From assembly GCA_024399655.1 (NCBI GenBank), contig JAKSNP010000008.1, forward strand, positions 41,461 to 105,460: a stretch of DNA of 64,000 nucleotides, in the 5' to 3' direction. Shown here piece after piece: positions 36,781 to 64,000 of this stretch. Both the position numbers and the translations under genes were made by a program. Positions within the stretch are counted from its first letter, which is position 1, and every line of letters starts with the position of its first letter. Below the pieces are notes generated by a model. That model was not told the origin of the DNA. It worked only from the letters and a program-made list of their open reading frames with translations, and ran no database searches. The DNA comes from Paludibacteraceae bacterium. GTDB taxonomy: Bacteria > Bacteroidota > Bacteroidia > Bacteroidales > Paludibacteraceae.

Positions 36781-38556
36781 TTAGTCTATTCTGATGCCGC
36801 GGAAGGCAGTCTTGCCCACTACAGTTCCGGCAGGAACGATAGGCATCTGCAGACTCTCGCAATTGAGGAACGCATTGTCTTCAATCAGTTTGAGCCCTTC
36901 GGGCAGTTCCACTTTCTTCAGATTCTTGCAACCTTCAAAAGCGCTGCCGTCAATCTCTTCTACATTCTCTTTCAGTTTCACTTCCTGCAGCGTACGGCAG
37001 TTATAGAAAGCCAGCAGACCGATTTTCTTTACTTTTCTGCCGAAGGTCACCTTACGGAGATTGATGCAGTCAGAGAATGCCTCGTCGCTGATAAATTCCA
37101 CATTATCGGGAATCACGATCTCACCCAGACGCTTGCAGTACGAGAAGGCTCCGTCTTCTATCATATGCACGTTGTCGGCCATCCCAATACCTTCTAGACT
37201 CTGGCATTGCGCAAAGGCTTGCTTGCCGATACGGAAAGTGCTGGCGGGCAGAGCGATGCGCTCTATCAGAATGCAACCCATAAAGGCTTCGTCACCTACG
37301 GCATACAACCCTTCGGGCAAGGTTACATTCACCAGTTGACGGCAACCCTTGAAAGCGCCTTTCTTTACTTCTACGATTCCTTCGGGGATAGTAACACGTT
37401 CTATCTTCTGGCAACCGGCAAAAGCGGTCTCTCCCAAATATTTCAATGTCTTGGGCAGAGCGATGGCTTCCAGTTCCGTGCAACCTGCAAACGCACCGTC
37501 ACCGATGCGGACCAATTTGCTCGGTAAGGCCAACTTCTGTATCTTGTGGCAACCGTAGAATGTGCCGTCGCCTATTTCAGTCAGTTTGTCGCTCAACACC
37601 TGTTCGCGCAGGTCGGCGCAGCCGTAGAAGGCCATCTCCCCCAGTTCCTCCAGATTGGCGGGCAATTTGGCCCAACGCAAATCCTCGTCTTGATAGAAAG
37701 CGTATGCGCCTACACGTTTTACACCTTGAGGAATGTTGATCTCCTGGAGACTCAGACAATGGTAGAATGCGGCATCGGGTATCTCTTCCAACGTCTCGGG
37801 CAGAGTAATCGATTGAAGCGTCTCTGAATAGGCAAAGGCGCCTTCTGCCATCAGTCGGGTAGGAACTTTGGTCTTGAAAACGAACGTGGCGGGCACATCC
37901 TTGTTGGTGGCCACCAGGCAGTCCTCGATAAAGAGCGCGCCGCGTTTCCATTTCTTGTCGTTCAGATATATGCCGGTGCCGTCAAAGGCGTAACGACCGA
38001 TTTTCTTTACTGATTTGGGGATATTCACGCGAGTCAACTTCTTGCAACCCTTGAATACGCCTTCTTCCAGTACGGTCAGCCCTTCTGGCAATTCGATACG
38101 TGTCAGAGTTTTGTTTCCTTCAAAGGCGCCGCAGGCGATCATCTTGATGTTCGACGATACGGCCATCTTCGATTTAATACTTTTGTTGGCATACAGCAGG
38201 ATAGTGTCGTTCACGATGAACAGACCGCCTACATAATGCTGTTTGTCGTTCAGGAATGCGGTGCCGTCAAAGGCGCTGCGATAAACGCGCTCCAAATAGC
38301 GGGGGAAGACTACATTGGTCAGTTTCTTGCAACCTTTGAAGGCCTTTTCACCAATCACCGTCACGCGGAATGTCTTCTGACCCACTGTGATCTCGTCCGG
38401 TATCACGATTTCGCCTGCCGCCTGAGGATTCTTGTCCACTTCGGCTGTCAGGTTCTTTTCGTCCAGTACATAGTTCAGGTCATTGTACTTGGCAGTTTCC
38501 TGTCCGTTTACGGCCAATGCTAATGCGGCCATAATCAAGAGCATAAATTTCTTCAT
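36781..38556 (-). CDS. BspA-like leucine-rich repeat surface protein
   Basis: 591 residues. A signal peptide (ending ALAVNGQ) and a short N-terminal domain (IVIPDEITVGQKTFRVTVIG) come first, followed by about 20 LRR_5 units of 23 residues. Each has the pattern I-G-x-x-A-F-x-G-C-x-x-L-x-x-V-x-L-P, for example IGDGAFAGCTELEAIALP. The last unit reaches the C-terminus, and no T9SS tail or glycine-rich anchor follows. BspA relatives bind host or microbial surfaces; the ligand here is unknown. It has its own promoter and lies upstream of, and divergent from, no partner. Confidence 0.88.
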   Translation of the reverse strand: MKKFMLLIMAALALAVNGQETAKYNDLNYVLDEKNLTAEVDKNPQAAGEIVIPDEITVGQKTFRVTVIGEKAFKGCKKLTNVVFPRYLERVYRSAFDGTAFLNDKQHYVGGLFIVNDTILLYANKSIKSKMAVSSNIKMIACGAFEGNKTLTRIELPEGLTVLEEGVFKGCKKLTRVNIPKSVKKIGRYAFDGTGIYLNDKKWKRGALFIEDCLVATNKDVPATFVFKTKVPTRLMAEGAFAYSETLQSITLPETLEEIPDAAFYHCLSLQEINIPQGVKRVGAYAFYQDEDLRWAKLPANLEELGEMAFYGCADLREQVLSDKLTEIGDGTFYGCHKIQKLALPSKLVRIGDGAFAGCTELEAIALPKTLKYLGETAFAGCQKIERVTIPEGIVEVKKGAFKGCRQLVNVTLPEGLYAVGDEAFMGCILIERIALPASTFRIGKQAFAQCQSLEGIGMADNVHMIEDGAFSYCKRLGEIVIPDNVEFISDEAFSDCINLRKVTFGRKVKKIGLLAFYNCRTLQEVKLKENVEEIDGSAFEGCKNLKKVELPEGLKLIEDNAFLNCESLQMPIVPAGTVVGKTAFRGIRID

Positions 38557-38616
38557 ATATCGATAGTTTTATGTTAATTTCTTTTCCGGAGAATGCATAA
38601 TTCCCCTTTGGGGCTG

Positions 38617-40788: not shown

Positions 40789-41940
40789 TTATGCCAATCG
40801 GTCTGCCAGAATGAGTGTCGGCTTGCCATTCACGCGCGTTCCTATTATATATAGATTGCCCCCGTCTTTTATTTTCAGCTTTTTTCTGAGCTGCTCGGCG
40901 CTGAGCGGATAATTGCGGCAGATCACGTTCGCCTGCTCAGGCAGGTCCTTGCTGTTTAACTCGATTGTCTTGAATCTTCGTCCCGGGAAATTGTTCACTT
41001 CATTCGCGCTCGTATACAGGTGTGAGTTCTTGTCCATCTGCTCCACGCCGTATCGATGCGCTATAGTCCTGAATGCACCCGCTTTCATGAGGGCAGCGTT
41101 CGGCTCGTAGAGGTATGCTCCCGCTTCTTTGGCCGTCACTTGCGGCAGATTGTTCTCTTCTTCCCTTGTCATTTCCAGTCGTATGCCGCTTTTCAGGTCT
41201 ATGGCCGTTACGGTGGGGTGGGTGCCTGCCCCTTCAAGAATCACAATCTCTTTCACTTCATTGTCCACAGCCACGATATGAGTCTCCCAATCGCCGCCCA
41301 TGCTCTTCAAGGCGGCCGTCACATCCGTCATTGGCGATAACTTCAGCATCCGTAGGCAACTCTTTTGTCGCATGGTTCCGATCAGTCGGGTCATGTTTGG
41401 CGTGCAGTCTTCTATTCTGAATACTTTTCCCCCGTTCTTGTCCCTGCGAGCTGGATCGGCATATAGGATTCGGCGATCCGTACCTGCCGTCGTTAATGCT
41501 TCCAGCCGCTCCTCCGCTGTGCTGTTGATTATCTGTATCCGTGCACCTAAATTATGTTCCGCCAATCGGCATAATTCGGCGTCTTTTTCGATATAATAGG
41601 CCGTTTTGACAGCTTCGCTCAGATATAACGTGTCAATTCCGCTACCTCCTGTCAGGTCGTTCAACTCCCCGTTTTCTATCCCTTTCTCCTTCAATAGTTC
41701 GCGCTTGTAACAGGCAGTCAACTCGCTCGAACATTGTTCGCACGATAACCTTACGGGATACCACCAGTCATCCCTTGCCGCTATGCTCGGCAACTTTTCT
41801 TTCGTCCGTTGTCGGCCTTCTATTTGTTGAAGGACCCATCGAAATTCGTCATTCGATAGGTCCTTGTATTGGGCACGCTGCAGCGCCAGTTGCGCCACAT
41901 CGTCATGCTCGTGTGCTTTTATTATTCCGCTCAGTTCCAC
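40789..41940 (-). CDS. SAM-dependent methyltransferase with THUMP-like domain (PG_1098 family)
   Basis: 383 residues. The N-terminal 85 residues are a helical domain. A class I methyltransferase core follows: DLTGGSGIDTLYLSE is motif I, AYYIEKDAEL the acidic end of strand 2, and RRILYADPARRD the DPPR-like catalytic motif seen in nucleic acid methyltransferases. The C-terminus (GAYLYEPNAALMKAGAF, then NVICRNYPLSAEQLRKKLKI) is the THUMP-like part. The family occurs widely in Bacteroidota and probably modifies RNA; the substrate is unproven. It starts 1 bp from the end of the adjacent lipoprotein gene, suggesting coupling. Confidence 0.9.
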   Translation of the reverse strand: MELSGIIKAHEHDDVAQLALQRAQYKDLSNDEFRWVLQQIEGRQRTKEKLPSIAARDDWWYPVRLSCEQCSSELTACYKRELLKEKGIENGELNDLTGGSGIDTLYLSEAVKTAYYIEKDAELCRLAEHNLGARIQIINSTAEERLEALTTAGTDRRILYADPARRDKNGGKVFRIEDCTPNMTRLIGTMRQKSCLRMLKLSPMTDVTAALKSMGGDWETHIVAVDNEVKEIVILEGAGTHPTVTAIDLKSGIRLEMTREEENNLPQVTAKEAGAYLYEPNAALMKAGAFRTIAHRYGVEQMDKNSHLYTSANEVNNFPGRRFKTIELNSKDLPEQANVICRNYPLSAEQLRKKLKIKDGGNLYIIGTRVNGKPTLILADRLA

Positions 41941-51000: not shown

Positions 51001-51894
51001 GTCAATATCGAGGGCGACAATTTCGCAATTCGCAACTTCCATGGCAATATGATTAAGTGCGACAGCTATTTCTCTTTCGATACTTATATCCTCGCCGACA
51101 ATGCCGTCTGCTACCATGTCCTCTTCTCCTACAATCCTCCTGCTGCCAACGACACTATCGATGTCGATTCCTACAACGCTTTCTTTATCAACCGTAGCAA
51201 CTCTTGTCTGGTCACGGGATCCAATAGGGATTCTTCTGTCTCTGTGCAACTGATGTTCAACCGTCCTGCTGGCTCCTGCACCCTTTCGCCGGCTGAGCTC
51301 TCTGTCAACTCTTCTGATAATTTCATCGTCGTCAATCAGAAGAAAATGGGAATCTGCAACCTTACTGCCGGCATGTCTCTCGCCGATAACGGATTCGCCT
51401 TCGATGCCTATATCCTCGCTTCCGACACCACTTGCTATCATTTCTTCACCAACCGTACTTTCCAATGGCGGGAACTCCTATTCGATAGTGTTTGCGTGCA
51501 CGAGCTTGATGATAATGAGACCTGGGCTTTCGTAGGCTGCTCCGATTCCTGCATGATGGAAATCATCGTTGACTGCGACACTCTCTCCACTCGTTCTTTG
51601 GGCATTGACAACTTCAGCGATGCCATGCTCCTCATCAACGGTGTGGATCATCAAATCAGCGATTTCAAGGCAGAACTCGTCTACGATACCGAGGATGATT
51701 GGAAGATGGAAGCGCTTCTGCTCACTAATGAGATGGTTATTTATCGTGCGCTTCTCCGCTTTTGCAGGGAGCCTGCGGGTTCCGAAGTGTTATCGGGAGA
51801 AGGGGAGGTGATTGAGAAGTTCCTCCGTGACGGTCAATTAATCATTCGTCGTCAGGGGCATGAATATACAGTTCACGGTCAACGTCTCCGCTAA
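48013..51894 (+). CDS. Large exported protein with 11 repeats of an unrecognised family
   Basis: 1,293 residues. The signal peptide (MKKLFAFFCLAFFAFYLSAS) is followed by about 11 repeats of 100-120 residues. Each begins near D-T-[IV] followed by a beta-strand, has a middle L-x-G-x-Y/F-x-x-x-D-L and ends with the strongest mark, F-D-A-Y-I-L-A-S-D-x-x-C-Y-H-x-x-F-S-Y. Most repeats have a single Cys, placed just before the Tyr-His. The C-terminal 22 residues follow the pattern KF-x3-G-x-L-x3-R, then GH-x-[YF]TV-x-GQ, shared with the two large proteins at 55-63 kb. I do not recognise the repeat family. It is probably a surface protein exported with the T9SS. Confidence 0.8.
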   Translation: MKKLFAFFCLAFFAFYLSASSPSDYLPLPLCRQSLPALLEHTHDSLPFSLSNDAPKFNRSKLPSYPAIDTIEIEASYYGYNRITDGTPYFDVYAQNADRSFMFEAYVATSTFNGNFFLNDIIADMLRIKGKERDITDFSCVLVDDGKNYSIDLYITASDRHCYHSFFSYTAPIAIDTVNLVVYNSILTRYSDGFAVSCNDESLPLNAVFTIASTSLNGSYHINNLYNLEPLSSLFYNHTFYQIWDFDATMVYSGPEFIFDAYVLISGSHCLHVSMIFQLPVPVDTIDVYLPQSDITTYLNAFTVVGESDDHLSNASLTVYTDDTNGSFSYNDFCIDTNFTYLNYNGQRIDAVDFYADMITDGPEFTCDAYILSRDAHCYHTVLSYILPSDFDTIQMPVLLADGEFDNFHFIISGNNSQQNFDVQLYLRQPPLNGTYTYSDLFTVGTQNSFIHHNDSNIAIVGLNASLTLYPNSFLFDAYILAKNRHCYHAVFERRADTTQVTFDNAEYSFDREQHIYKVYAFSGQNQLTIQFLTDSFPGVYNLDNMNSVSFKYNGETMDRKPYNDNVVPITSCLASVTVGPGCEFAVDAILQCSPFRFFHINAFFNLPPVKDTVEVVINNAEFKQSDETFSIEGNDSVMGYFARCILSGRPDHRNYTFHDLTSVNYKSSVISNSSSLYSISCLFLDFHGNLITNGSDISFDTYALASDSVCYHITFSYNPPQPNDTIQITLVSSELTTYDDHCILKGYTQNPRDYITLLLLRPAGNDTLDFYDVCSDNNSTIKFTNYKYIKDFNAIMTYDDFGYSVDAYILASDSICYHVFFCKQSDSIDIDFYDVTVQPRFMATEFIDLFGENEDYNFAFSFFNNSFDVIKVGSYDLASVNDVYMNEISTHKHIVPLDFKADVYADEGDGLFVDAFIKAQNLQTYHLRIFYSIPQAVDTVYVLADNAQLKINDTCFTVSGLDRNINISALLVVNYNYINSNFNFQNLNIESKRGYVNIEGDNFAIRNFHGNMIKCDSYFSFDTYILADNAVCYHVLFSYNPPAANDTIDVDSYNAFFINRSNSCLVTGSNRDSSVSVQLMFNRPAGSCTLSPAELSVNSSDNFIVVNQKKMGICNLTAGMSLADNGFAFDAYILASDTTCYHFFTNRTFQWRELLFDSVCVHELDDNETWAFVGCSDSCMMEIIVDCDTLSTRSLGIDNFSDAMLLINGVDHQISDFKAELVYDTEDDWKMEALLLTNEMVIYRALLRFCREPAGSEVLSGEGEVIEKFLRDGQLIIRRQGHEYTVHGQRLR

Positions 51895-54191: not shown

Positions 54192-54669
54192 TACTCCAGC
54201 CCCTTTGTTTATGCGAGTGCAACGAGCCTGAACGTGCCAAACGTTCGTTTATAATAGCAAGAATAGAGTAGTGCCAAGCATGTTTATCCGATTCATGTTT
54301 ACGAATATTTGAAATTTATAGGAAATAACATACAAGTTTACCTTGCATGATCGACCGTCTTACTAATATACTAATAGGTATTACACATCTATTGGCTGTG
54401 AATTATTGAATCTGAAACAGGTTTGACATAACTCTTCATTTTTCGCCGATTAATGATTTTGTAACTGCTGCCGTCCTAAAAAAGGGTTTATAACGGGTTC
54501 GGAACGGGCTTTTGCAAGGGTGTGGCAAGTCCTTGTCAAACTCCATCTCCAATTCCCTTCCACCCTTATTCTCCTTCAACTTTTTTTTAAATACACATGG
54601 TTGATTCCACTATCAATTCTTAGAACTACACATTTAAATTCCTGCTATTGAGTAGGTCGGGAACTTCAA

Positions 54670-54698
54670 GGAATTTGCGGGAAATTCCCGCAAATTCC
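54670..54698. repeat. 29-bp perfect palindrome
   Basis: GGAATTTGCGGGAA, a single A, then its exact reverse complement TTCCCGCAAATTCC. The 14-bp arms with a one-base centre suit a protein-binding site better than an RNA hairpin. It lies about 440 bp upstream of the next promoter. Confidence 0.85.
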
Positions 54699-55009
54699 CG
54701 ACTTCCTTCTCTATGTATCGGCATTCATCTTAATCCATAAATACCTGTATTGCAGAAATTTATATCATTTGTATTTTCCTCTGCTTTTCATTCCGCGGAC
54801 ACTTTCAATTTGTCCGGCAAATTCACTTTCGGGAACTTCTTCCAACATTCGGTAATCTCTGTAGAGTGTATTTTATATTCAGGTCAACTGGTATATTATT
54901 GCCAATTTATAAAAAAGAATCTTCTTATCCCTTCTTAAACCTTCTTGTATCAAACATAATAAACAATTAACGTAAACGTTAAAATCAATAATCAATCAGT
55001 CAAATTGGC

Positions 55010-55090
55010 AACTCCGTTGTTCATCATTCGGCTCAGCCCGCAATATGATCTGTGTAACAATCAGTTGCCGCTGCGGCATGATGCATTATA
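55010..55090. repeat. Hairpin repeat family, copy 3
   Basis: CTCCGTTG, CATCATTCGGCTC and AACAATCA-TTGCCGC appear in the same order as in copy 1 (47.85-47.94 kb), including the TTGCCGC/GCGGCA hairpin. The intervening hairpins are replaced by other sequence. Confidence 0.7.
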
Positions 55091-55105
55091 AAAAATCCTT
55101 TTTTT

Positions 55106-55137
55106 TTTGTGGAATCGGATTTTTTTTCTTATCTTTG
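55106..55137 (+). promoter_or_regulatory. Promoter of the LRR/InlB-repeat giant gene
   Basis: TTTG (55106-55109), 20-bp spacer, TATCTTTG (55130-55137). The leader to the ATG at 55308 would be about 165 bases. Confidence 0.75.
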
Positions 55138-55307
55138 CACCCGATTTTGTCCATTAAGGACATTTGTTTATTTTTACGGGTGTTTTGATATTTGCTCGTT
55201 GGCTTGATTGGCCGCCCCTGCTCGGCCCGACTTCTTGCAAACGTTATTTCACCGGCAGTTTATGTTTAATGTATAATCGGGGCTTTCTTTTCACCCCCCT
55301 CTTCATT

Positions 55308-58300
55308 ATGAAAAAGCGACTCTTTATCCTTTTCTTCGCTATCCTTGGGGTATCATCTCTTTGTGCAACTGTAGTCTCTTCCAATAGCCTTATTTTCAAC
55401 CTCTCTGAGGCTGATTCCACGGCTTCTGTCGCCTGTCCTCTTTCTGGTCAGGCTGCTTATTCCGGAGATATCGTTATCCCCGATACTGTTTTCTTCGACA
55501 ATATCCCTTATGTGGTCTGCTCCATAGATAGTGCCGCTTTTAGTGATGCCGTTAATCTCACTTCCGTCATCTTGCCCGCTTCGCTCCAAAGTATCCGTTC
55601 TGATGCCTTCTCCGGCTGTACGGGACTTACGTTCGTCTCTTTCCCCCAGTGCATGAGGGAGATAGGCGACTTTGCGTTCTACTCCTGTTCCAACCTCCTT
55701 TATATATCCCTTCCCGATTCGCTCACCACAATCGGACGATACGCTTTTGCTAATTGTAAGGCGGTGTCGTCGCTCTCTTTCGGCAATAATATCACCACGA
55801 TCGGCGATTTCGCTTTTCAAAGTTGCTCCCACCTGTCATCTGTCTTTTTCCCCGAATCCCTCCTGCATATCGGTCGAGCCGTTTTTGAGCATTGCTACGC
55901 CCTTTCTCAAATCTCCCTCCCGCAGCATCTCCTCAAAATTGACAAGTATGCTTTTGCCGACTGCACCGCACTCTCTTCACTTGTTTGCCCGGCTTCTCTG
56001 CGTACACTCGATGACTATGCCTTCCGTGGATGCACTTCGCTCATTTCCGTCTCGCTCAACGAGGGACTCGCTTATCTCGGCGACTTCGCCTTCTCCGGTT
56101 GCTCCCGACTACCGTCGATTGGTATCCCTTCTTCTATCGACACTATCTATGCCTCCTTCATGTATTGCTCGTCTCTCGCGATTGTCTTACTCCCTGAGGG
56201 GGTACGGCATATCGACAAAAGCGCTTTTTCCGATTGCTCCAACCTCATCGAAATCAATTTCCCTGCCTCCCTACGTTCCATTGATTCTAACGCCTTTGTC
56301 AATTGCAGCAGCCTCACATCTGCCCTCCTCCCCGATTCGCTCTCATTTATAGGTGCCAGCGCTTTCTACGGATGCTCTTCGCTCACTCAGCTCCATTTGC
56401 CCGTTGCGCTCCGGCAAATCAACGATGGCGTCTTCTACGGATGCTCAGCACTCTCACAGGTCGTTTTCCCCGATTCGCTCGTCTCTATCGGCAACAACGC
56501 TTTCGCGGGATGTTCACATCTTAACGCTGTCGTCCTGCCACAATCCCTCAGTAGCTTGGGTGTTGCCGCCTTCTCCGGCTGCTCCAATCTGGCGTCGGTT
56601 TCCGTGCTCGGACCCGTTTCTGAGCTTTGGAACGAAACATTCGCTGATTGCTCCCGACTCACTCTCGTCAATCTCCCCTCTTCCGTCAAATCCATTGGAC
56701 GTGGCGTTTTTCGTAACTGCTCTGCGTTGAGGAATATCGATCTGCCGACACAACTGGAGCGTATTGAAGGCAATGCTTTCGAGGGATGTAGCCGCCTGAC
56801 TCAGATATATTTGCCCGACAACGTCATTAGTATCGGGAACGAAGCATTCAAAAATTGCTCCTTATTGTACCGCATCTATTTGGGTAAAAAAATATTCTAC
56901 ATCAATAGTGATGCTTTCGCCGACACTAACCTCCAAGCGGCTATTCTTAGAGGCTCTGCTTTTTCATCTGACTTGTATAACTTCTTTTCCAACTACTCTT
57001 GCTATATTTATTTCACTTGCCTCTCGGTTGGTTCCTTGAAGAATTACAAAAATCTTTATCCTGCTATTGCGAATCGGCTTTATACGCTGGATGGCTCCGA
57101 TTGGCGCTCTATCACCGTCGAATCCGACTCCGCCGGATATGTCGAATTTCTGCGCGACTACTCTTGCGACAACGATACCGTCATCTATCAGGCCGTCTGC
57201 ACTGCTCCCGACTCGGTCTTCACTCATTGGGAGGACGGTTCCACCGATAATCCGCGTATACGACTCGTCACCAATTTCCTGACCGATAAGGCCTATTTCG
57301 GACCCGCTAACCTCGCCGTCTCGTTCTACGATATCGATTCCGTACTCCTCTGGGAGGATTCCGTTCCGTATAATTCCATGCCCGTGTATCAAGGACCTGA
57401 ACCTGTTCAGCCTCAACAACCCGGATGTTCCTTCATTTTCCGTGGATGGCAACCGCAACTACAACCCGCCACCTCCGATTTCTCCTACTTTGCCGCCTAC
57501 GACACCGTCTATATCCAATACACCGTCTCCTTCTATAATGCCGACGGTCGATTTATCTATGATGTCAATGCTTTCTACGGTGATACGATATCCTTCCAAG
57601 GACCCGACCCGCAATTGCCGGCCACCGACTCCTGCCACTATCTTTTCTATGGTTGGTCGCCTGCCTTGCAGCCCGTTACAGGGGATGTTGTTTATACGGC
57701 CGTCTTCGACACCGTCGTCAATCGCTATCCCGTCTCTTTCTATGATTTTGACGGCTCGCTCATCCGTACTGATTCCCTGCCTTACGGTCAGTATCCCGAG
57801 TTCGGCTCACCGCTTCCCTCACGTCCCGCTACGCCCGAGTATACCTATCTCTTCCAATCGTGGGTTCCCGCTCTGGCGCCCGTCACTTCCGAAGCTTCGT
57901 ATCAGGCTTCCTATGCCGCTTCCCTCAATTCCTATACCGTCCTTTTCCTTGATGCTGACGGTTCGCCGCTTCGCTCCGTGGATTGCTTCTATGGCGAACT
58001 GCCGGTATTCGAAGGCCTGCAACCTGCTCATCCCGCTTCCGACTCCTGCCGTTATATCTTCCGTGGTTGGTCGCCCGACTTGCAGTCCGTTACCGAAGAT
58101 GCTGTCTATACCGCCGTCTTCGATACCATCGTCAATCGCTATCCCGTCGCGTTCTATCATTTCGATGGTTCGCTCCTCTTCTGCGATTCCCTGCCTTACG
58201 GACAGATGCCGGCGTTTGCTGATTCTGTTCCGGTCATGTCCGAGTCCCCCGAATTCGTCTATACTTTCCGCGGTTGGATGCCGGCTCCTGTTCCGGTTAG

Positions 58301-58868
58301 GGCTGCCGCTTCTTATGTGGCTTTGTTTGATGCGGATGTACGCACTTATCCCGTCTCGTTCTATGATTTCGACGGTTCGCTGATTGCGCGTGAAGATTAT
58401 CGTTACGGCTCCTATCCCCATTTTGATGGGGCTGATCCCGTCCGTGATGATACGCCGGCCTTTTCGTATGCCTTCACGGGGTGGTCGCCTGCTTTCTCCG
58501 TAGTGCTGGATACGGCGGCTTATGTCGCTCAGTACGACAGTTTAATCAATTCTTACACGGTTTCGGCCGTAGCCGAGCACGGAACGGTTACAGGTACGGG
58601 CACCTACGTGTATGGAACGGAGGTTATGTTGTTGGCTCTTCCGGATGACGGTTTCGAGTTCTCGTCCTGGTCGGATGGTGAAGTGGCTAATCCTCGGACT
58701 ATTGTGGTGGAGTCTGATGTCGAGGTTGAGGCTTGGTTTGTTGAGTCGTCCACGTCGTTGGATGAATCGGAATCTTCGTCGTCGGTAGTCAAGTTCATTC
58801 ACAACGGCAGTTTGTATCTTTTCCGCAACGGTCATTTGTTCACCGTTCAGGGTCAACTGGTCAAGTGA
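55308..58868 (+). CDS. Surface protein: BspA leucine-rich repeats plus Listeria-Bacteroides repeats
   Basis: 1,186 residues from the ATG at 55308, which gives a clean signal peptide (MKKRLFILFFAILGVSSLCA). The frame is open 48 codons upstream, but those residues are not signal-like. Residues about 30-555 are roughly 21 LRR_5 units of the IGDFAFSGCSRLPSIGIP type. From about 660 come six Flg_new-type Listeria-Bacteroides repeats (V-S-F-Y-D-F-D-G ... Y-G ... F-x-G-W-S-P), then one divergent InlB repeat (HGTVTGTGTYVYG, SSWSDGEVANPR), a Ser-rich linker and the 22-residue GQ tail. The final 390 codons are repeated in the next gene. Likely a surface adhesin. Confidence 0.87.
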   Translation: MKKRLFILFFAILGVSSLCATVVSSNSLIFNLSEADSTASVACPLSGQAAYSGDIVIPDTVFFDNIPYVVCSIDSAAFSDAVNLTSVILPASLQSIRSDAFSGCTGLTFVSFPQCMREIGDFAFYSCSNLLYISLPDSLTTIGRYAFANCKAVSSLSFGNNITTIGDFAFQSCSHLSSVFFPESLLHIGRAVFEHCYALSQISLPQHLLKIDKYAFADCTALSSLVCPASLRTLDDYAFRGCTSLISVSLNEGLAYLGDFAFSGCSRLPSIGIPSSIDTIYASFMYCSSLAIVLLPEGVRHIDKSAFSDCSNLIEINFPASLRSIDSNAFVNCSSLTSALLPDSLSFIGASAFYGCSSLTQLHLPVALRQINDGVFYGCSALSQVVFPDSLVSIGNNAFAGCSHLNAVVLPQSLSSLGVAAFSGCSNLASVSVLGPVSELWNETFADCSRLTLVNLPSSVKSIGRGVFRNCSALRNIDLPTQLERIEGNAFEGCSRLTQIYLPDNVISIGNEAFKNCSLLYRIYLGKKIFYINSDAFADTNLQAAILRGSAFSSDLYNFFSNYSCYIYFTCLSVGSLKNYKNLYPAIANRLYTLDGSDWRSITVESDSAGYVEFLRDYSCDNDTVIYQAVCTAPDSVFTHWEDGSTDNPRIRLVTNFLTDKAYFGPANLAVSFYDIDSVLLWEDSVPYNSMPVYQGPEPVQPQQPGCSFIFRGWQPQLQPATSDFSYFAAYDTVYIQYTVSFYNADGRFIYDVNAFYGDTISFQGPDPQLPATDSCHYLFYGWSPALQPVTGDVVYTAVFDTVVNRYPVSFYDFDGSLIRTDSLPYGQYPEFGSPLPSRPATPEYTYLFQSWVPALAPVTSEASYQASYAASLNSYTVLFLDADGSPLRSVDCFYGELPVFEGLQPAHPASDSCRYIFRGWSPDLQSVTEDAVYTAVFDTIVNRYPVAFYHFDGSLLFCDSLPYGQMPAFADSVPVMSESPEFVYTFRGWMPAPVPVRAAASYVALFDADVRTYPVSFYDFDGSLIAREDYRYGSYPHFDGADPVRDDTPAFSYAFTGWSPAFSVVLDTAAYVAQYDSLINSYTVSAVAEHGTVTGTGTYVYGTEVMLLALPDDGFEFSSWSDGEVANPRTIVVESDVEVEAWFVESSTSLDESESSSSVVKFIHNGSLYLFRNGHLFTVQGQLVK

Positions 58869-58880
58869 TAGATTTGCCTT
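57711..58880 (+). repeat. 1,170-bp direct repeat, copy A
   Basis: Matches 62016-63185 (offset 4,305). The encoded protein ends are identical, and every DNA segment I compared matched exactly. Two mismatches at 57698 and 57710 mark the left edge. The repeat runs 12 bp past the stop codon. Confidence 0.93.
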
Positions 58881-58916
58881 CGGCAATTCCCGATTGCGCA
58901 TCGTGCATTAAGAAAA

Positions 58917-58948
58917 ATGAGTTCGGTTTCTCGAGCTCATTTTTTTTC
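58917..58948 (+). terminator. Terminator of the LRR/InlB-repeat gene
   Basis: ATGAGTTCG (58917-58925) pairs with CGAGCTCAT (58932-58940), one G-T pair, followed by a T-run to 58948. Confidence 0.85.
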
Positions 58949-59084
58949 CTCTCCCTATCCGCTGCATAGCCAATTGTGCTTTGAGCGTTGTGAATTGTGC
59001 ATAAATAACGCCGCTCCGCTCCTGTTTGGCATAAAATTTGTGAAAAAAATTAATATATCTTATTATATTAAAATAATTGTTTTT

Positions 59085-62000
59085 ATGATACGATTATCTA
59101 AATCTTTTTTGCTGGTACTTATTCTTTTGTGTTGTCCTTTTATGTCTTTTGCCGAACTTACATGGGATGGCAATTCCTCTCCTTGGACCAATGGTTCCGG
59201 CACGGCTGATGATCCTTTTCTGATCGAAACGCCACAACAATTATCCTATCTCTCCGATATGGTGAGTGAGGGGATGCATTCCTATGCGGATACCTTTTTC
59301 CTGCAAACCGAAGATCTGAATCTTAATAATCAATTGTGGACGCCTATCGGAGTTTCTGCATCTTCTGCGTTCCAGGGCAATTACGACGGAGGTGGTAAAT
59401 ACATCAAAAATATTCAATTTGATGGTTTGAATAATAATTATATTGCCTTGTTCGGATATGTTATGTCCGGGTCGATTAGCAATCTTACCGTTCAAGGTGC
59501 GCTCACTTCTACTGCTTCTAAAAATTATATGGCGGCTATCGTGGCATCCGGCATTGATGTCTCATTAACCAATTGTATGAATAAATCGAATGTGCCTGTA
59601 TCAATAAGATATGCCGGTGGAATTATTGCCTACATTGATGGCGGTTCGGTTACCAGATGTTCCAATATTGGAGCCGTCTCTACTGATATCAACATTTTAT
59701 ATGCTGTATCTTATGCCGGTGGAATCGTAGGAAATGTTAACGGTAACGTGGTCATCACACAATGCAGCAATACGGGGTGCGTTTCTGCTACCTCTTCTTC
59801 TTATTCCACCTACGCCACAGCCTATGCCGGAGGTATCGTTGGATGTAGTTCCGGAATTACAGGATGTTCCTATTGCTTTGCGCGTGGTTCGGTTATAGCT
59901 AATGTTCTTACTGAGGCGGGAGTCAAATATGCACGAGCTTATGGTATTGGCTACAATATTAATGCTTCCGATTGTTATTTTGCCGGCACCATAAAAGCTA
60001 GTTACGCATCGGGAGGCATTAGCAACATGAATAGCACCAATTGCTATTGTAATAATGATTGTGGCGCTTTTTCAAGTTACTCTGAAGTATCCAGAACTCT
60101 CAATCAAATGAAAACGGAAACATTTGTCAATCAGATTAATAATGGGCAGTATGTCTTCCGTATGGATTACTCTGATATCAATGATGGATTCCCTGTGCTC
60201 GCTTGGCAACAACCGGTTATCTACTTTTCCGTACGTGGCTATGGGATTGAAAACAGAGGTACGGTGATTGGAGGCGGTGAATATGTTTTGGAAGACACTG
60301 CCACTGTCGAAGCGGTTCCTAATAGCGGTTGCTATTTTGTATCTTGGTCGGATGGTGTTACGGATAATCCCCGTAGCCTGAAGGTGACCAAGGATACGAT
60401 ATTGGTTGCTATTTTCGCCCAAATGCCAATCGCGTCTATATATCAGGATTGTTCCAAAAATGGCCCCGACTTAGCTTCGCAAAACAATAATGATACTTCC
60501 GAAAATGGATTTGAGATGGTTGATTTGGGACTCTCTGTGTATTGGGCTACTACTAATGTGGGAGCCTCTTCACCGGAAGACCGCGGCAACTGTTTTGCTT
60601 GGGGAGAAGTCGCTCCCAAAAACGAATATACGTTTAATACCTATATCTACTCCGGCGATACATATAATACCTTTTCTAAATACTGCACCGATAGCTCCTA
60701 TGGCACCGTTGACAATCTTACTACACTCTTGCCCTCTGATGATGCCGCTTATGTCAATTGGGGGGGCAAGTGGCGAATGCCCACTAAGAATGAATGGGAT
60801 GAACTTCATAGACAATGCACCTTTTCCGATACTACGCTGAATGGAGTGTCTGGCTTTCAAGTCACCGGCAGAAACGGCAATTCTATTTTTCTTCCTTTTG
60901 TTAATATGGTGAGCGGATATAGTTACGAAGCCGGAGATGTCGATGTTGGCTTCTATTGGTCTTCCTCGCTTTTCTCCGGCAACCCGAGATCAGCGTATGA
61001 TTTCCGATTCACTCAGGGAGAATATGTTTCCGTCTTGGAGAATATCCGCGCTTATGGTGAAGCTGTCCGTCCTGTGCTTCCACGAAACACTCGCACACTT
61101 ACGCTTTATGCCGATGGATGCGATTCTCCCGCTATATTTACTTATCCTGCCGGCGAATCGGTCTACGTGAATGCGACTCCCTTGGAGAATGGCCACTTCG
61201 TCGCTTGGTCTGATGGTGTTACCGACAATCCCCGTTCGGTCATCATGACCAACGACAATTCCTTTACTGCCATTTTCGCTTTCAACGAATATACCGTCAA
61301 TGGCGAAACTCATCTGTCTGGAGATCAAATTACACTCACCGCTCCGGATTCCGCTTGCTGTTCGTTCAGCAGTTGGAGCGACGGAGCAACCGCTAATCCG
61401 TATGTGTTTACTTTGACAAAGGATACCGACATCACTCCGATTTATACCTTGAATCAATTCACCATCTCCGCTTCTGCTACCAACGGATCAGTATCAGGTG
61501 CGGGTACGTATAATTGTGGTGATGAAGTTACTTTGACTGCTACTCCGGCTACTGGATACCACTTTGTGGCTTGGAATGATAACAACTCCGATAACCCCCG
61601 TGTCATGATCTTGACACAGGATACTTCGTTTACCGCTACCTTCGCTCTCAACGAGCATACCGTCAATGGCGAGACGCATTTGTATGGAGATCCTGTTCTT
61701 CTTATGGCTTCTGATTCCACCTGCTATACCTTCAGTAAATGGAGCAATGGAGCAACCGCTAATCCGTATGTGTTTACTTTGACAAAGGATACCGTCATCA
61801 CTCCGATTTATACCTTGAATCGCTATCAGATTACATGGAATGGCGAGAACGGAAATATTCTGGAGCAAGACAGCCTTGATTGCGGAGATATGCCTGTATT
61901 CAGCGGGGCTGTTCCTCAAAAGCCCGCAACAGCGCAATACACCTATACGTTCAGCGGTTGGTATCCTGCTGTAACGGAAGCAGCCGCTAATACGGTTTAT

Positions 62001-63173
62001 ACCGCCGTCTTCGATACCGTCGTCAATCGCTATCCCGTCTCTTTCTATGATTTTGACGGCTCGCTCATCCGTACTGATTCCCTGCCTTACGGTCAGTATC
62101 CCGAGTTCGGCTCACCGCTTCCCTCACGTCCCGCTACGCCCGAGTATACCTATCTCTTCCAATCGTGGGTTCCCGCTCTGGCGCCCGTCACTTCCGAAGC
62201 TTCGTATCAGGCTTCCTATGCCGCTTCCCTCAATTCCTATACCGTCCTTTTCCTTGATGCTGACGGTTCGCCGCTTCGCTCCGTGGATTGCTTCTATGGC
62301 GAACTGCCGGTATTCGAAGGCCTGCAACCTGCTCATCCCGCTTCCGACTCCTGCCGTTATATCTTCCGTGGTTGGTCGCCCGACTTGCAGTCCGTTACCG
62401 AAGATGCTGTCTATACCGCCGTCTTCGATACCATCGTCAATCGCTATCCCGTCGCGTTCTATCATTTCGATGGTTCGCTCCTCTTCTGCGATTCCCTGCC
62501 TTACGGACAGATGCCGGCGTTTGCTGATTCTGTTCCGGTCATGTCCGAGTCCCCCGAATTCGTCTATACTTTCCGCGGTTGGATGCCGGCTCCTGTTCCG
62601 GTTAGGGCTGCCGCTTCTTATGTGGCTTTGTTTGATGCGGATGTACGCACTTATCCCGTCTCGTTCTATGATTTCGACGGTTCGCTGATTGCGCGTGAAG
62701 ATTATCGTTACGGCTCCTATCCCCATTTTGATGGGGCTGATCCCGTCCGTGATGATACGCCGGCCTTTTCGTATGCCTTCACGGGGTGGTCGCCTGCTTT
62801 CTCCGTAGTGCTGGATACGGCGGCTTATGTCGCTCAGTACGACAGTTTAATCAATTCTTACACGGTTTCGGCCGTAGCCGAGCACGGAACGGTTACAGGT
62901 ACGGGCACCTACGTGTATGGAACGGAGGTTATGTTGTTGGCTCTTCCGGATGACGGTTTCGAGTTCTCGTCCTGGTCGGATGGTGAAGTGGCTAATCCTC
63001 GGACTATTGTGGTGGAGTCTGATGTCGAGGTTGAGGCTTGGTTTGTTGAGTCGTCCACGTCGTTGGATGAATCGGAATCTTCGTCGTCGGTAGTCAAGTT
63101 CATTCACAACGGCAGTTTGTATCTTTTCCGCAACGGTCATTTGTTCACCGTTCAGGGTCAACTGGTCAAGTGA
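59085..63173 (+). CDS. Surface protein: GLUG-like, Fibrobacter-type paralogous domain and InlB-like repeats
   Basis: 1,362 residues from the ATG at 59085, where a signal peptide begins (LVLILLCCPFMSFA). Upstream in-frame codons cross the previous gene's terminator. Residues about 20-340 are a beta-rich GLUG-like domain (GNYDGGGKYIKNIQF, YAGGIVGNVNG). Residues about 480-670 match the Fibrobacter major paralogous domain (LGLSVYWATTNVGASSPED, WGGKWRMPTKNEWDEL). Then come four to five divergent InlB repeats (WSDGVTDNPRS and WSNGATANPY types). The last part repeats the preceding gene: four Listeria-Bacteroides repeats, one divergent repeat and the same GQ tail. It looks like a surface protein built on the same display stalk as its neighbour. 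Confidence 0.87.
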   Translation: MIRLSKSFLLVLILLCCPFMSFAELTWDGNSSPWTNGSGTADDPFLIETPQQLSYLSDMVSEGMHSYADTFFLQTEDLNLNNQLWTPIGVSASSAFQGNYDGGGKYIKNIQFDGLNNNYIALFGYVMSGSISNLTVQGALTSTASKNYMAAIVASGIDVSLTNCMNKSNVPVSIRYAGGIIAYIDGGSVTRCSNIGAVSTDINILYAVSYAGGIVGNVNGNVVITQCSNTGCVSATSSSYSTYATAYAGGIVGCSSGITGCSYCFARGSVIANVLTEAGVKYARAYGIGYNINASDCYFAGTIKASYASGGISNMNSTNCYCNNDCGAFSSYSEVSRTLNQMKTETFVNQINNGQYVFRMDYSDINDGFPVLAWQQPVIYFSVRGYGIENRGTVIGGGEYVLEDTATVEAVPNSGCYFVSWSDGVTDNPRSLKVTKDTILVAIFAQMPIASIYQDCSKNGPDLASQNNNDTSENGFEMVDLGLSVYWATTNVGASSPEDRGNCFAWGEVAPKNEYTFNTYIYSGDTYNTFSKYCTDSSYGTVDNLTTLLPSDDAAYVNWGGKWRMPTKNEWDELHRQCTFSDTTLNGVSGFQVTGRNGNSIFLPFVNMVSGYSYEAGDVDVGFYWSSSLFSGNPRSAYDFRFTQGEYVSVLENIRAYGEAVRPVLPRNTRTLTLYADGCDSPAIFTYPAGESVYVNATPLENGHFVAWSDGVTDNPRSVIMTNDNSFTAIFAFNEYTVNGETHLSGDQITLTAPDSACCSFSSWSDGATANPYVFTLTKDTDITPIYTLNQFTISASATNGSVSGAGTYNCGDEVTLTATPATGYHFVAWNDNNSDNPRVMILTQDTSFTATFALNEHTVNGETHLYGDPVLLMASDSTCYTFSKWSNGATANPYVFTLTKDTVITPIYTLNRYQITWNGENGNILEQDSLDCGDMPVFSGAVPQKPATAQYTYTFSGWYPAVTEAAANTVYTAVFDTVVNRYPVSFYDFDGSLIRTDSLPYGQYPEFGSPLPSRPATPEYTYLFQSWVPALAPVTSEASYQASYAASLNSYTVLFLDADGSPLRSVDCFYGELPVFEGLQPAHPASDSCRYIFRGWSPDLQSVTEDAVYTAVFDTIVNRYPVAFYHFDGSLLFCDSLPYGQMPAFADSVPVMSESPEFVYTFRGWMPAPVPVRAAASYVALFDADVRTYPVSFYDFDGSLIAREDYRYGSYPHFDGADPVRDDTPAFSYAFTGWSPAFSVVLDTAAYVAQYDSLINSYTVSAVAEHGTVTGTGTYVYGTEVMLLALPDDGFEFSSWSDGEVANPRTIVVESDVEVEAWFVESSTSLDESESSSSVVKFIHNGSLYLFRNGHLFTVQGQLVK

Positions 63174-63185
63174 TAGATTTGCCTT
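62016..63185 (+). repeat. 1,170-bp direct repeat, copy B
   Basis: Apparently identical to 57711-58880. After 63185 the sequence diverges (TGTC in place of CGGC) but returns to similar CAATTCCCGAT and GTGCATCGTGCATTA elements. Confidence 0.93.
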
Positions 63186-63272
63186 TGTCAATTCCCGATC
63201 GTGCATCGTGCATTAATTAAGCTGCATAGCAGTCTACGTCCTCGTCAATTGTGCATCCAAATAATCCGTCAT

Positions 63273-63301
63273 AGCACTTGCAGAAATGCGAGTGCTTTTT
63301 T
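63273..63301 (+). terminator. Terminator of the last giant gene
   Basis: AGCACTTGCA (63273-63282), loop GAAA, TGCGAGTGCT (63287-63296), then T to 63301. One G-T pair in a 10-bp stem. Confidence 0.85.
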
Positions 63302-63532
63302 TGTGACTTGGTGGATTTTGTGTGTGCCTTGGTGGATTTTTTTTGAGTTTTGATGACGAGGGAGAAATGTTAAAAATTATATTAACAAATGGGCGAAAAA
63401 TGGGCGGAATTACACAAAGGTGTCTAAACAACTTTATGTAAAACGGATATAACGAGAAGATATTCAGCGGATTATAAGGAGTGAAAAATCGGTTAATAAT
63501 GTTAATGCGGAAAGGGCTGAGGGAAAGAAAAA

Positions 63533-63564
63533 TTTGGAAAATTCAGAAAAATGTTGTACCTTTG
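63533..63564 (+). promoter_or_regulatory. Promoter of the structured leader
   Basis: TTTG (63533-63536), 20-bp spacer, TACCTTTG (63557-63564). Transcription should begin near 63571. Confidence 0.8.
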
Positions 63565-63570
63565 CACTCG

Positions 63571-63935
63571 GAATTGGATAATTCGACTGCCCCTTAGTGC
63601 CTTGCCCGTATTCGGGCATGAGCCGGACGGAGTTATCCATTTTTCAAATTGAACTGTTGGTACATGACTAACGTCCGCGGAATTGTACTGCGGTTTGGTA
63701 TATACCAATATTCTATCCGAAGGAAGAGTGGAAAGAGCCGCCGCCAACCCTTTATGGGAGAAAGTATGAGGAGTTGCTCGTCCTCACTTTGGATAGTTAT
63801 CAAGTCGGCTGATTTCGCCTTTTGTTCCCGACTATAAACAAGCAACTAATGGCATGCAGATTGGGGCATGTCGAAAGGCGTGCCCCAATTGCTGTCTATA
63901 GGCGAATAGTGTTAAATTATTAAATCATTTTTATT
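63571..63935 (+). ncRNA. Candidate structured leader or non-coding RNA
   Basis: About 365 bases between promoter and start codon contain several strong stems. TGGATAA (63575-63581) pairs with TTATCCA (63633-63639) and encloses TGCCCG/CGGGCA. TTGGTATATACCAA (63695-63708) is a palindrome. CTATCCGAAG (63713-63722) pairs with CTTTGGATAG (63787-63796) and encloses TGAGGA/TCCTCA. ATTGGGGCATG pairs with CGTGCCCCAAT near 63860-63889. No T-run follows the last hairpin. Short frames within it (62 codons at 63649) are not protein-like. I recognise no known RNA class. Confidence 0.45.
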
Positions 63936-64000
63936 ATGAACGAAACTATTCGTGAAAGCCAAATCGAGTGGCTCAAAAACTCGCTCCGTTCCGCATTGTT
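63936..64000 (+). CDS. Start of an unidentified gene (cut by right edge)
   Basis: The ATG at 63936 opens a frame that runs to the window end, with 21 full codons visible: MNETIRESQIEWLKNSLRSA and one Leu. The stretch looks helical and has no signal peptide. It is too short to identify. It is preceded by the structured leader and an AT-rich segment. Confidence 0.6.
   Translation, partial: MNETIRESQIEWLKNSLRSAL

Follow-up and report, generated by a model that had tools for sequence, protein, structure and literature searches.

Two adjacent surface-protein genes with a common 3' end

The window analysed here is a 64,000-bp stretch of DNA from a Paludibacteraceae bacterium, corresponding to positions 41461-105460 of contig C13 in a source genome assembly of 1.41 Mb (14 contigs, 75% complete). 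One conserved protein of the window shares 96% identity with a protein of the metagenome-assembled genome Candidatus Colicola coprequi, and 34 of its 80 best hits (out of 340) are labelled Paludibacteraceae, with most of the others from Bacteroidales, which points to a Paludibacteraceae-like gut bacterium. Near its downstream end, which is also the end of the contig, two large genes, A and B, lie one behind the other on the same strand and end in the same sequence (Table 1). The two copies of this 3' module show 0 differences over 1170 bp at an offset of 4305 bp, and the second copy stops 815 bp short of the contig end. The exact run comprises 385 amino acid codons and the stop codon (57711-58868 in A), followed by 12 bases. 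The original prediction had described an identical module of 1.17 kb reaching 12 bases past the stop, which is accurate apart from its count of 390 codons. The formal 95% upper bound on the divergence of the two copies is 0.26%.

Outside the exact run, 60-bp blocks compared at the same offset drop to 10-22 matches, the chance level, except for three intermediate blocks directly upstream (57541-57720; 26, 33, and 40 matches of 60). The claim that everything upstream differs thus applies further out, but not to these blocks or to the 21-bp edge with two mismatches that adjoins the tract. The predicted BspA-type repeats of A were recovered as Pfam LRR_5 leucine-rich repeats (413 bits), whereas the GLUG and Fibrobacter-type domains proposed for B were found neither with Pfam nor with NCBIfam at E<=0.001. 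Gene B carries several Flg_new_2 repeats (158 bits), and Flg_new_2 exceeds its cut-off in the proteins of both genes. Matches of B to Flg_new (outside the module) and Lcl_C are below their Pfam cut-offs; Flg_new was not reported in A, and the N-terminal part of B has no Pfam match above cut-off. Both genes have signal-peptide-like starts resembling those of secreted proteins, as judged by eye.

No third DNA copy of the module was detected in the assembly, which is 75% complete. The only other match to the module DNA in this assembly is a 167-bp segment (82% identity) spanning the 5' edge of the tract in A, and the repeats inside the module are 62-82% alike. The other contigs encode only diverged protein relatives (best, 44%). 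A search of related genomes for genes ending in the module, suggested at the outset, yielded such diverged relatives at the protein level (in 60 of 61 genus genomes, source included; best outside the source genome, 40%), but among 60 other genomes (36 of the genus and 24 of the order) the module DNA was matched only twice, over 32 and 37 bp in a single genome. A pattern scan of a contig collection, from which the source or very near records may be missing, returned 26 matches, none of them a relative. As a protein, the module is thus of a common type, whereas its DNA sequence is local.

Table 1. Coordinates of genes A and B, the shared module, its edges, and associated motifs in the window
Feature	Position	Strand	Description
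Gene A	55308..58868	+	1186 aa, ATG at 55308; BspA-type leucine-rich repeat region, InlB-type repeats, shared 3' module
Gene B	59085..63173	+	1362 aa, ATG at 59085; Flg_new_2 repeats, shared 3' module
Shared 3' module, copy 1	57711..58880	+	1170 bp, exact
Shared 3' module, copy 2	62016..63185	+	1170 bp, exact
Tract 5' edge in A	57690..57710	+	Homologous to 61995-62015, 2/21 mismatches, within conserved repeat junction
Tract 3' edge after A	58881..58911	+	Homologous to 63186-63216, 4/31 mismatches, to ...GCATCGTGCATTAA
C-terminal tail KFIHNGSLYLFRNGHLFTVQGQLVK and stop codon, copy 1	58791..58868	+	
C-terminal tail and stop codon, copy 2	63096..63173	+	
TANNTTTG	55130..55137	+	Bacteroidetes -7-like motif, 178 bp 5' of the gene A ATG

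Edges of the tract and the origin of the identity

At both ends, the exact tract passes into homologous sequence containing mismatches. Its 5' edge runs into a conserved repeat junction (VYTAVFDTVVNRYPV), and on the 3' side homology ceases downstream of ...GCATCGTGCATTAA. A near-identical tract flanked by homologous, more diverged sequence is the arrangement expected of gene conversion, although both flanks are short. The idea of a dispersed intergenic repeat at the 3' flank found no support in the window or in four further stretches of the genome, where the next-best matches of the flank reached 21-22 of 34 and at most 23 of 34 positions, respectively. Therefore, A and B were probably already homologous at the 3' flank before the event. 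Such mismatched homology at either end favours conversion between already related sequences over a fresh duplication. The earlier proposal of a recent duplication or gene conversion agrees with the exact tract and its mismatched homologous edges.

The explanation that we consider probable, with moderate confidence, is a recent gene conversion of the 3' display module between these adjacent surface genes. The two genes would already have carried homologous InlB-type repeats near their 3' ends, and homologous recombination without exchange of flanks would recently have copied approximately 1.2 kb, including stalk repeats, an Flg_new_2 domain, and the C-terminal tail. Both proteins would thereby have acquired the same stalk and export or anchoring tail beneath different N-terminal domains. 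Immediately before the tract, gene B contains a separate InlB-type repeat (38% match), which is proposed as the place for strand invasion. The 121 bp immediately 5' of the tract are closer to an internal repeat of the module (+414) in A (85/121) than in B (68/121); because of this modest difference, we infer that the transfer was more likely from A to B.

A partial duplication, in which a single copy of the 3' third of A became fused to the N-terminus of another gene and so created B with no conversion, is a less probable account but deserves some weight. The module was found in just two copies, which adjoin in direct order, and A and B have different domains in their upstream parts, both as such a fusion would leave them. 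A clean event of this type, however, predicts flanks that are either identical or unrelated, yet the 31 bp 3' of the tract are homologous with 4 mismatches. Moreover, B possesses its own InlB-type repeat and Flg_new_2 repeats before the tract. Conversion rather than partial duplication is what we infer from these features.

The identity also has to be read in light of the assembly. Seven pairs of contig tips in the source genome share exact ends of 54-55 bp (e.g. C1 end and C9 end, C2 start and C4 start, C4 end and C14 end, and C12 start and C13 start), and one further pair shares 32 bp. The assembly thus looks like a short-read de Bruijn graph with k=55, which is the usual largest k of metaSPAdes. 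In such a graph, a 1170-bp exact repeat forms a single edge that is traversed twice (A - R - B - R - C), and the graph fixes neither which copy holds which small variant nor the number of B-R units. The near-identity of the copies is safe, while their exactness and number are not, and smoothing could conceal somewhat more divergence than 0.26%. The exact DNA identity originally noted is accordingly retained as near-identity in an assembly of a type able to collapse such repeats. More generally, when a repeat exceeds k in a short-read metagenome assembly, its apparent exactness is not by itself proof of exact identity.

It is unlikely, in our estimation, that the shared module is an assembly effect altogether, i.e. 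that similar but non-identical module ends of ordinary paralogues were collapsed to one edge. Besides the shared 54-55-bp tips, which are what a k=55 graph leaves, no 16S gene was detected in the source assembly. Automated assembly could not resolve the identical repeats that hagA, rgpA, and kgp of Porphyromonas gingivalis contain and share with one another (PMC5266723). By reasoning from k, however, two modules diverged by more than a few per cent would have few 55-mers in common and would be expected to stay separate over 1170 bp, and the four contig junctions should be genuine k-mers. In addition, one congener (genome G074) keeps copies of 95.6% identity uncollapsed.

Two other observations were made on the contig tips. 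The end of C10 and the start of C14 in the source genome contain copies of a 47-nt repeat at a spacing of approximately 76-77 bp, which looks like an array of clustered regularly interspaced short palindromic repeats split across contigs. Two sets of tips (C5 end, C11 end, C12 start, and C13 start; C1 start, C2 end, and C12 end) share 53-55-bp sequences; these may represent the two ends of an insertion element, present in multiple copies, at which the assembly broke.

The original prediction had gone on to propose a cassette system with one conserved stalk and exchangeable tips. A common predicted stalk beneath different tips is indeed present, but no pool of cassettes was seen in the assembly (75% complete). 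Programmed switching, in which recombination on a fixed stalk exchanges tips and varies the surface, is very improbable. The same stalk does stand beneath different tips, and direct repeats of 1.17 kb generally suffice for homologous recombination. Nevertheless, by reasoning from the arrangement, a crossover between the copies leaves the product of gene A unchanged and loses B, so that no tips are swapped and no new fusion arises. The divisibility of the 4,305-bp offset by three, which had been considered significant, is irrelevant on the same kind of reasoning: any offset keeps the frame, because the crossover lies in identical, identically framed sequence. Tip exchange would require conversion into the tips, inverted copies, or further cassettes. 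The latter two were not found: the assembly (75% complete) yielded no further copy of the module, and no inverted pairs of at least 24 bp occur in 54500-64000. Neither the silent or alternative cassettes nor the inverted recombination sites of a phase-variable system were therefore detected in these searches. The shared 3' end of A and B is real but most likely reflects fairly ordinary recombination and is not by itself a tip-swapping switch.

Predicted stalk, C-terminal tail, and export

An AlphaFold model of the module (24-sequence alignment; mean predicted local distance difference test score, 91; predicted template modelling (TM) score, 0.56) contains four beta repeats with a 69-residue period, an Flg_new_2 domain, a disordered linker (349-357), and a three-stranded tail. 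Fold comparison with PDB at E<=0.001 matched four chains, namely the cell-surface protein YwfG (7yl4), SHIRT domains 3-4 of SGO_0707 (7avh, E=3.1e-5), and 5b83 and 7eb9, which are complexes with linear ubiquitin. The InlB B-repeat (2y5p_D) was matched with a probability of 0.99 but at E=0.30. Query TM-scores were 0.11-0.25 because each match spans part of a flexible chain. These matches suggest a beta-grasp-like unit in the model, and 'stalk' appears to be a fair term for the module as a predicted structure. Tandem beta repeats of approximately 70 residues with the fold of InlB and SHIRT stalks are present in the prediction, and no Pfam Flg_new match was above cut-off in the four stalk repeats; the stalk is therefore named InlB/SHIRT-like by predicted fold and is not classed as Flg_new. 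Searching solved structures with the module sequence gave nothing at E<=0.1, and the modelled final 120 residues had no match in PDB at E<=0.001.

The tail approximates the pattern K-[FYV]-[IL]-x-[ND]-G-x-L-Y-I-x-R-[ND]-G-x-x-Y-x-x-x-G-Q. By this pattern of our own, it ends 34 of 384 open reading frames (ORFs) of a biased set, in proteins across the genus that are otherwise different surface proteins. In an alignment of 25 tail proteins (from 39 listed), K96, G109, and G116 are invariant; the pattern had demanded both glycines, which leaves the lysine alone as independent. Scans of seven tails against Pfam gave no family above its cut-off. The tail may be an undescribed sorting signal. The source genome encodes SprA of the type IX system (2628 bits; cut-off, 200), making type IX export possible. 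However, no canonical C-terminal sorting domain (Por_Secre_tail or its NCBIfam equivalent) was detected in A or B, which are therefore not classed as type IX cargo; elsewhere in the source genome, this domain gave one weak match under its cut-off. Export of A and B via the tail is proposed from these sequence features. A further occurrence of the tail lies at 51817-51894 of the window.

Comparison across the genus and with known systems

The comparison set consisted of 60 stretches from 24 genomes, which were picked for a matching module and are not random. Repeats within each genome were scanned at >=90% identity and >=100 bp, and only two exceeded 500 bp. One of these, between C1 and C37 of genome G070 (1517 bp, 99.9%), was dropped as a further case because it is ambiguous, consisting of two contig starts that overlap in opposite orientation. 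The other is found on contig C7 of congener G074, in two neighbouring genes (ends at 41344 and 46369) that are 95.6% identical over the final 811 bp and 96.9% identical over a further 127 bp before an N-gap. Fourfold-degenerate sites of this pair differ at 14 of 121 positions in the 3' module versus 137 of 217 upstream (nine 100-codon blocks). The two genes are thus old paralogues, homogenised only in the 3' module. The near-identity and mismatched homologous edges of A and B, together with the 3'-limited homogenisation of this congener pair, are direct observations, whereas the stalk structure is predicted. Elsewhere in G074, a 479-bp stretch that is 91% identical between C13 (68034-68511) and C24 (39261-39732) lies 3' of two different tail-bearing genes and is possibly a small mobile element.

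Across 66 stretches (the window, the 60 stretches above, and five others), there are 193 adjacent ORF pairs on the same strand, of which 15, the A/B pair included, have alignable C-termini. This count omits the G074 C7 pair ending at 41344 and 46369, because the reading frame of its second gene is interrupted by the N-gap. In a count over 390 ORFs of 25 genomes, homologous C-termini reached 65% amino acid identity in 6 of 14 near pairs (same strand, within 2.5 kb) versus 3 of 58 other pairs (Fisher's exact test, p=0.001). The G074 C7 pair was placed in the adjacent class by hand for this count, and a Mann-Whitney p value of 0.007 predates that move.

Several findings weigh against conversion between A and B and against its wider occurrence. 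Fourfold sites were compared in four adjacent pairs of congeners: homogenisation is clear in one pair, graded in another, and absent from the remaining two. The graded pair (G012 C39) is 88.3% identical over 453 bp near the 3' end, and its nucleotide identity declines through 0.85, 0.71, and 0.60 in successive 100-codon blocks (fourfold differences, 10/42, 10/30, and 10/25). The unhomogenised pairs are the first pair on G074 C7 (23/35 and 25/35 fourfold differences in the last two blocks) and a pair on G074 C40 (16/32 and 17/33). The association with adjacency weakens when G063 is left out (p=0.010) and further when G000, the source genome, is left out as well (p=0.037). It comes from a sample selected for module matches that contains whole-gene tandem duplicates (G063), and adjacency is also expected from plain tandem duplication. 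Distant genes of G074 (C13 and C40) have 3' modules that are 88% alike at the amino acid level. For A and B themselves, a single partial duplication into B would be nearly indistinguishable, the mismatched flanks are short, and in a k=55 short-read graph the identity is perhaps partly consensus and the copy number unproven. No orthologous locus was found by DNA in the 60 other genomes (36 of the genus and 24 of the order). In five further genomes (the three best protein matches and two others named Colicola), the longest DNA match was 377 bp at 65%. ComEC was matched in 160 of 178 genus genomes, source included, with at most 59% outside the source.

It is doubtful, although conceivable, that adjacent giant surface genes throughout the genus repeatedly overwrite their 3' stalk-and-tail modules by conversion while their tips diverge freely; this proposal is rated lower because two of the four congener pairs tested are not homogenised. 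If true, it would keep export and display uniform, and a new N-terminal domain entering such an array would obtain the local stalk. In an uncultured gut lineage, the A/B pair and a second clear pair in a congener provide measurable examples in which homogenisation is restricted to the 3' display module of surface genes. If general, such homogenisation would explain how many different tips come to stand on few interchangeable stalks.

By analogy, the A/B pair appears comparable to the gingipain/HagA and KLIKK families. As described in part of one report (PMC5266723), the kgp, rgpA, and hagA modules of P. gingivalis involve other domains (CAD, DUF2436, and a conserved C-terminal domain), and 21 genomes were compared there, in contrast to one pair in one assembly here. 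The KLIKK products of Tannerella forsythia are proteases with an 86-residue domain, as opposed to the 385-residue stalk and short tail found here, and the portions of these accounts consulted (PMC4404884, PMC5445135) hold no report of DNA-level identity that we found. Periscope proteins resemble A and B in their repeat-rich surface stalk and in fold, as the module matches SHIRT domains 3-4 of SGO_0707. In those proteins, gene-length variation alters the projection of one protein (PMC8201768), whereas here the identity lies between two genes and the internal repeats are only 62-82% alike. The InlB B-repeat, or Listeria-Bacteroides repeat (Pfam Flg_new and Flg_new_2), is likewise similar in that Flg_new_2 is above its cut-off in A and B and 2y5p_D was matched by fold, but Flg_new itself is unreported in A and just under its cut-off in B, outside the module. 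A literature search in a single wording that combined gene conversion, concerted evolution, and bacteroid surface proteins found no papers.

The TANNTTTG element upstream of gene A resembles the Bacteroidetes -7 motif. The window contains 25 matches to it on the + strand, which makes any one match weak evidence by itself. The sole match within 400 bp upstream of gene B is at 58869, right after the stop codon of A and inside the shared tract. Approximately 17 kb upstream of gene A, another leucine-rich-repeat-like gene (36781-38568, - strand) has an NCBIfam HupY match far under cut-off and no tail by the tail pattern. Rfam gave nothing above gathering score in the window, including the leader of approximately 370 bases that follows a promoter-like element at 63524-63570 (...TTGTACCTTTGCA...) and leads to an ATG near the contig end. 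This promoter-like element was matched in all five of the other genomes searched.

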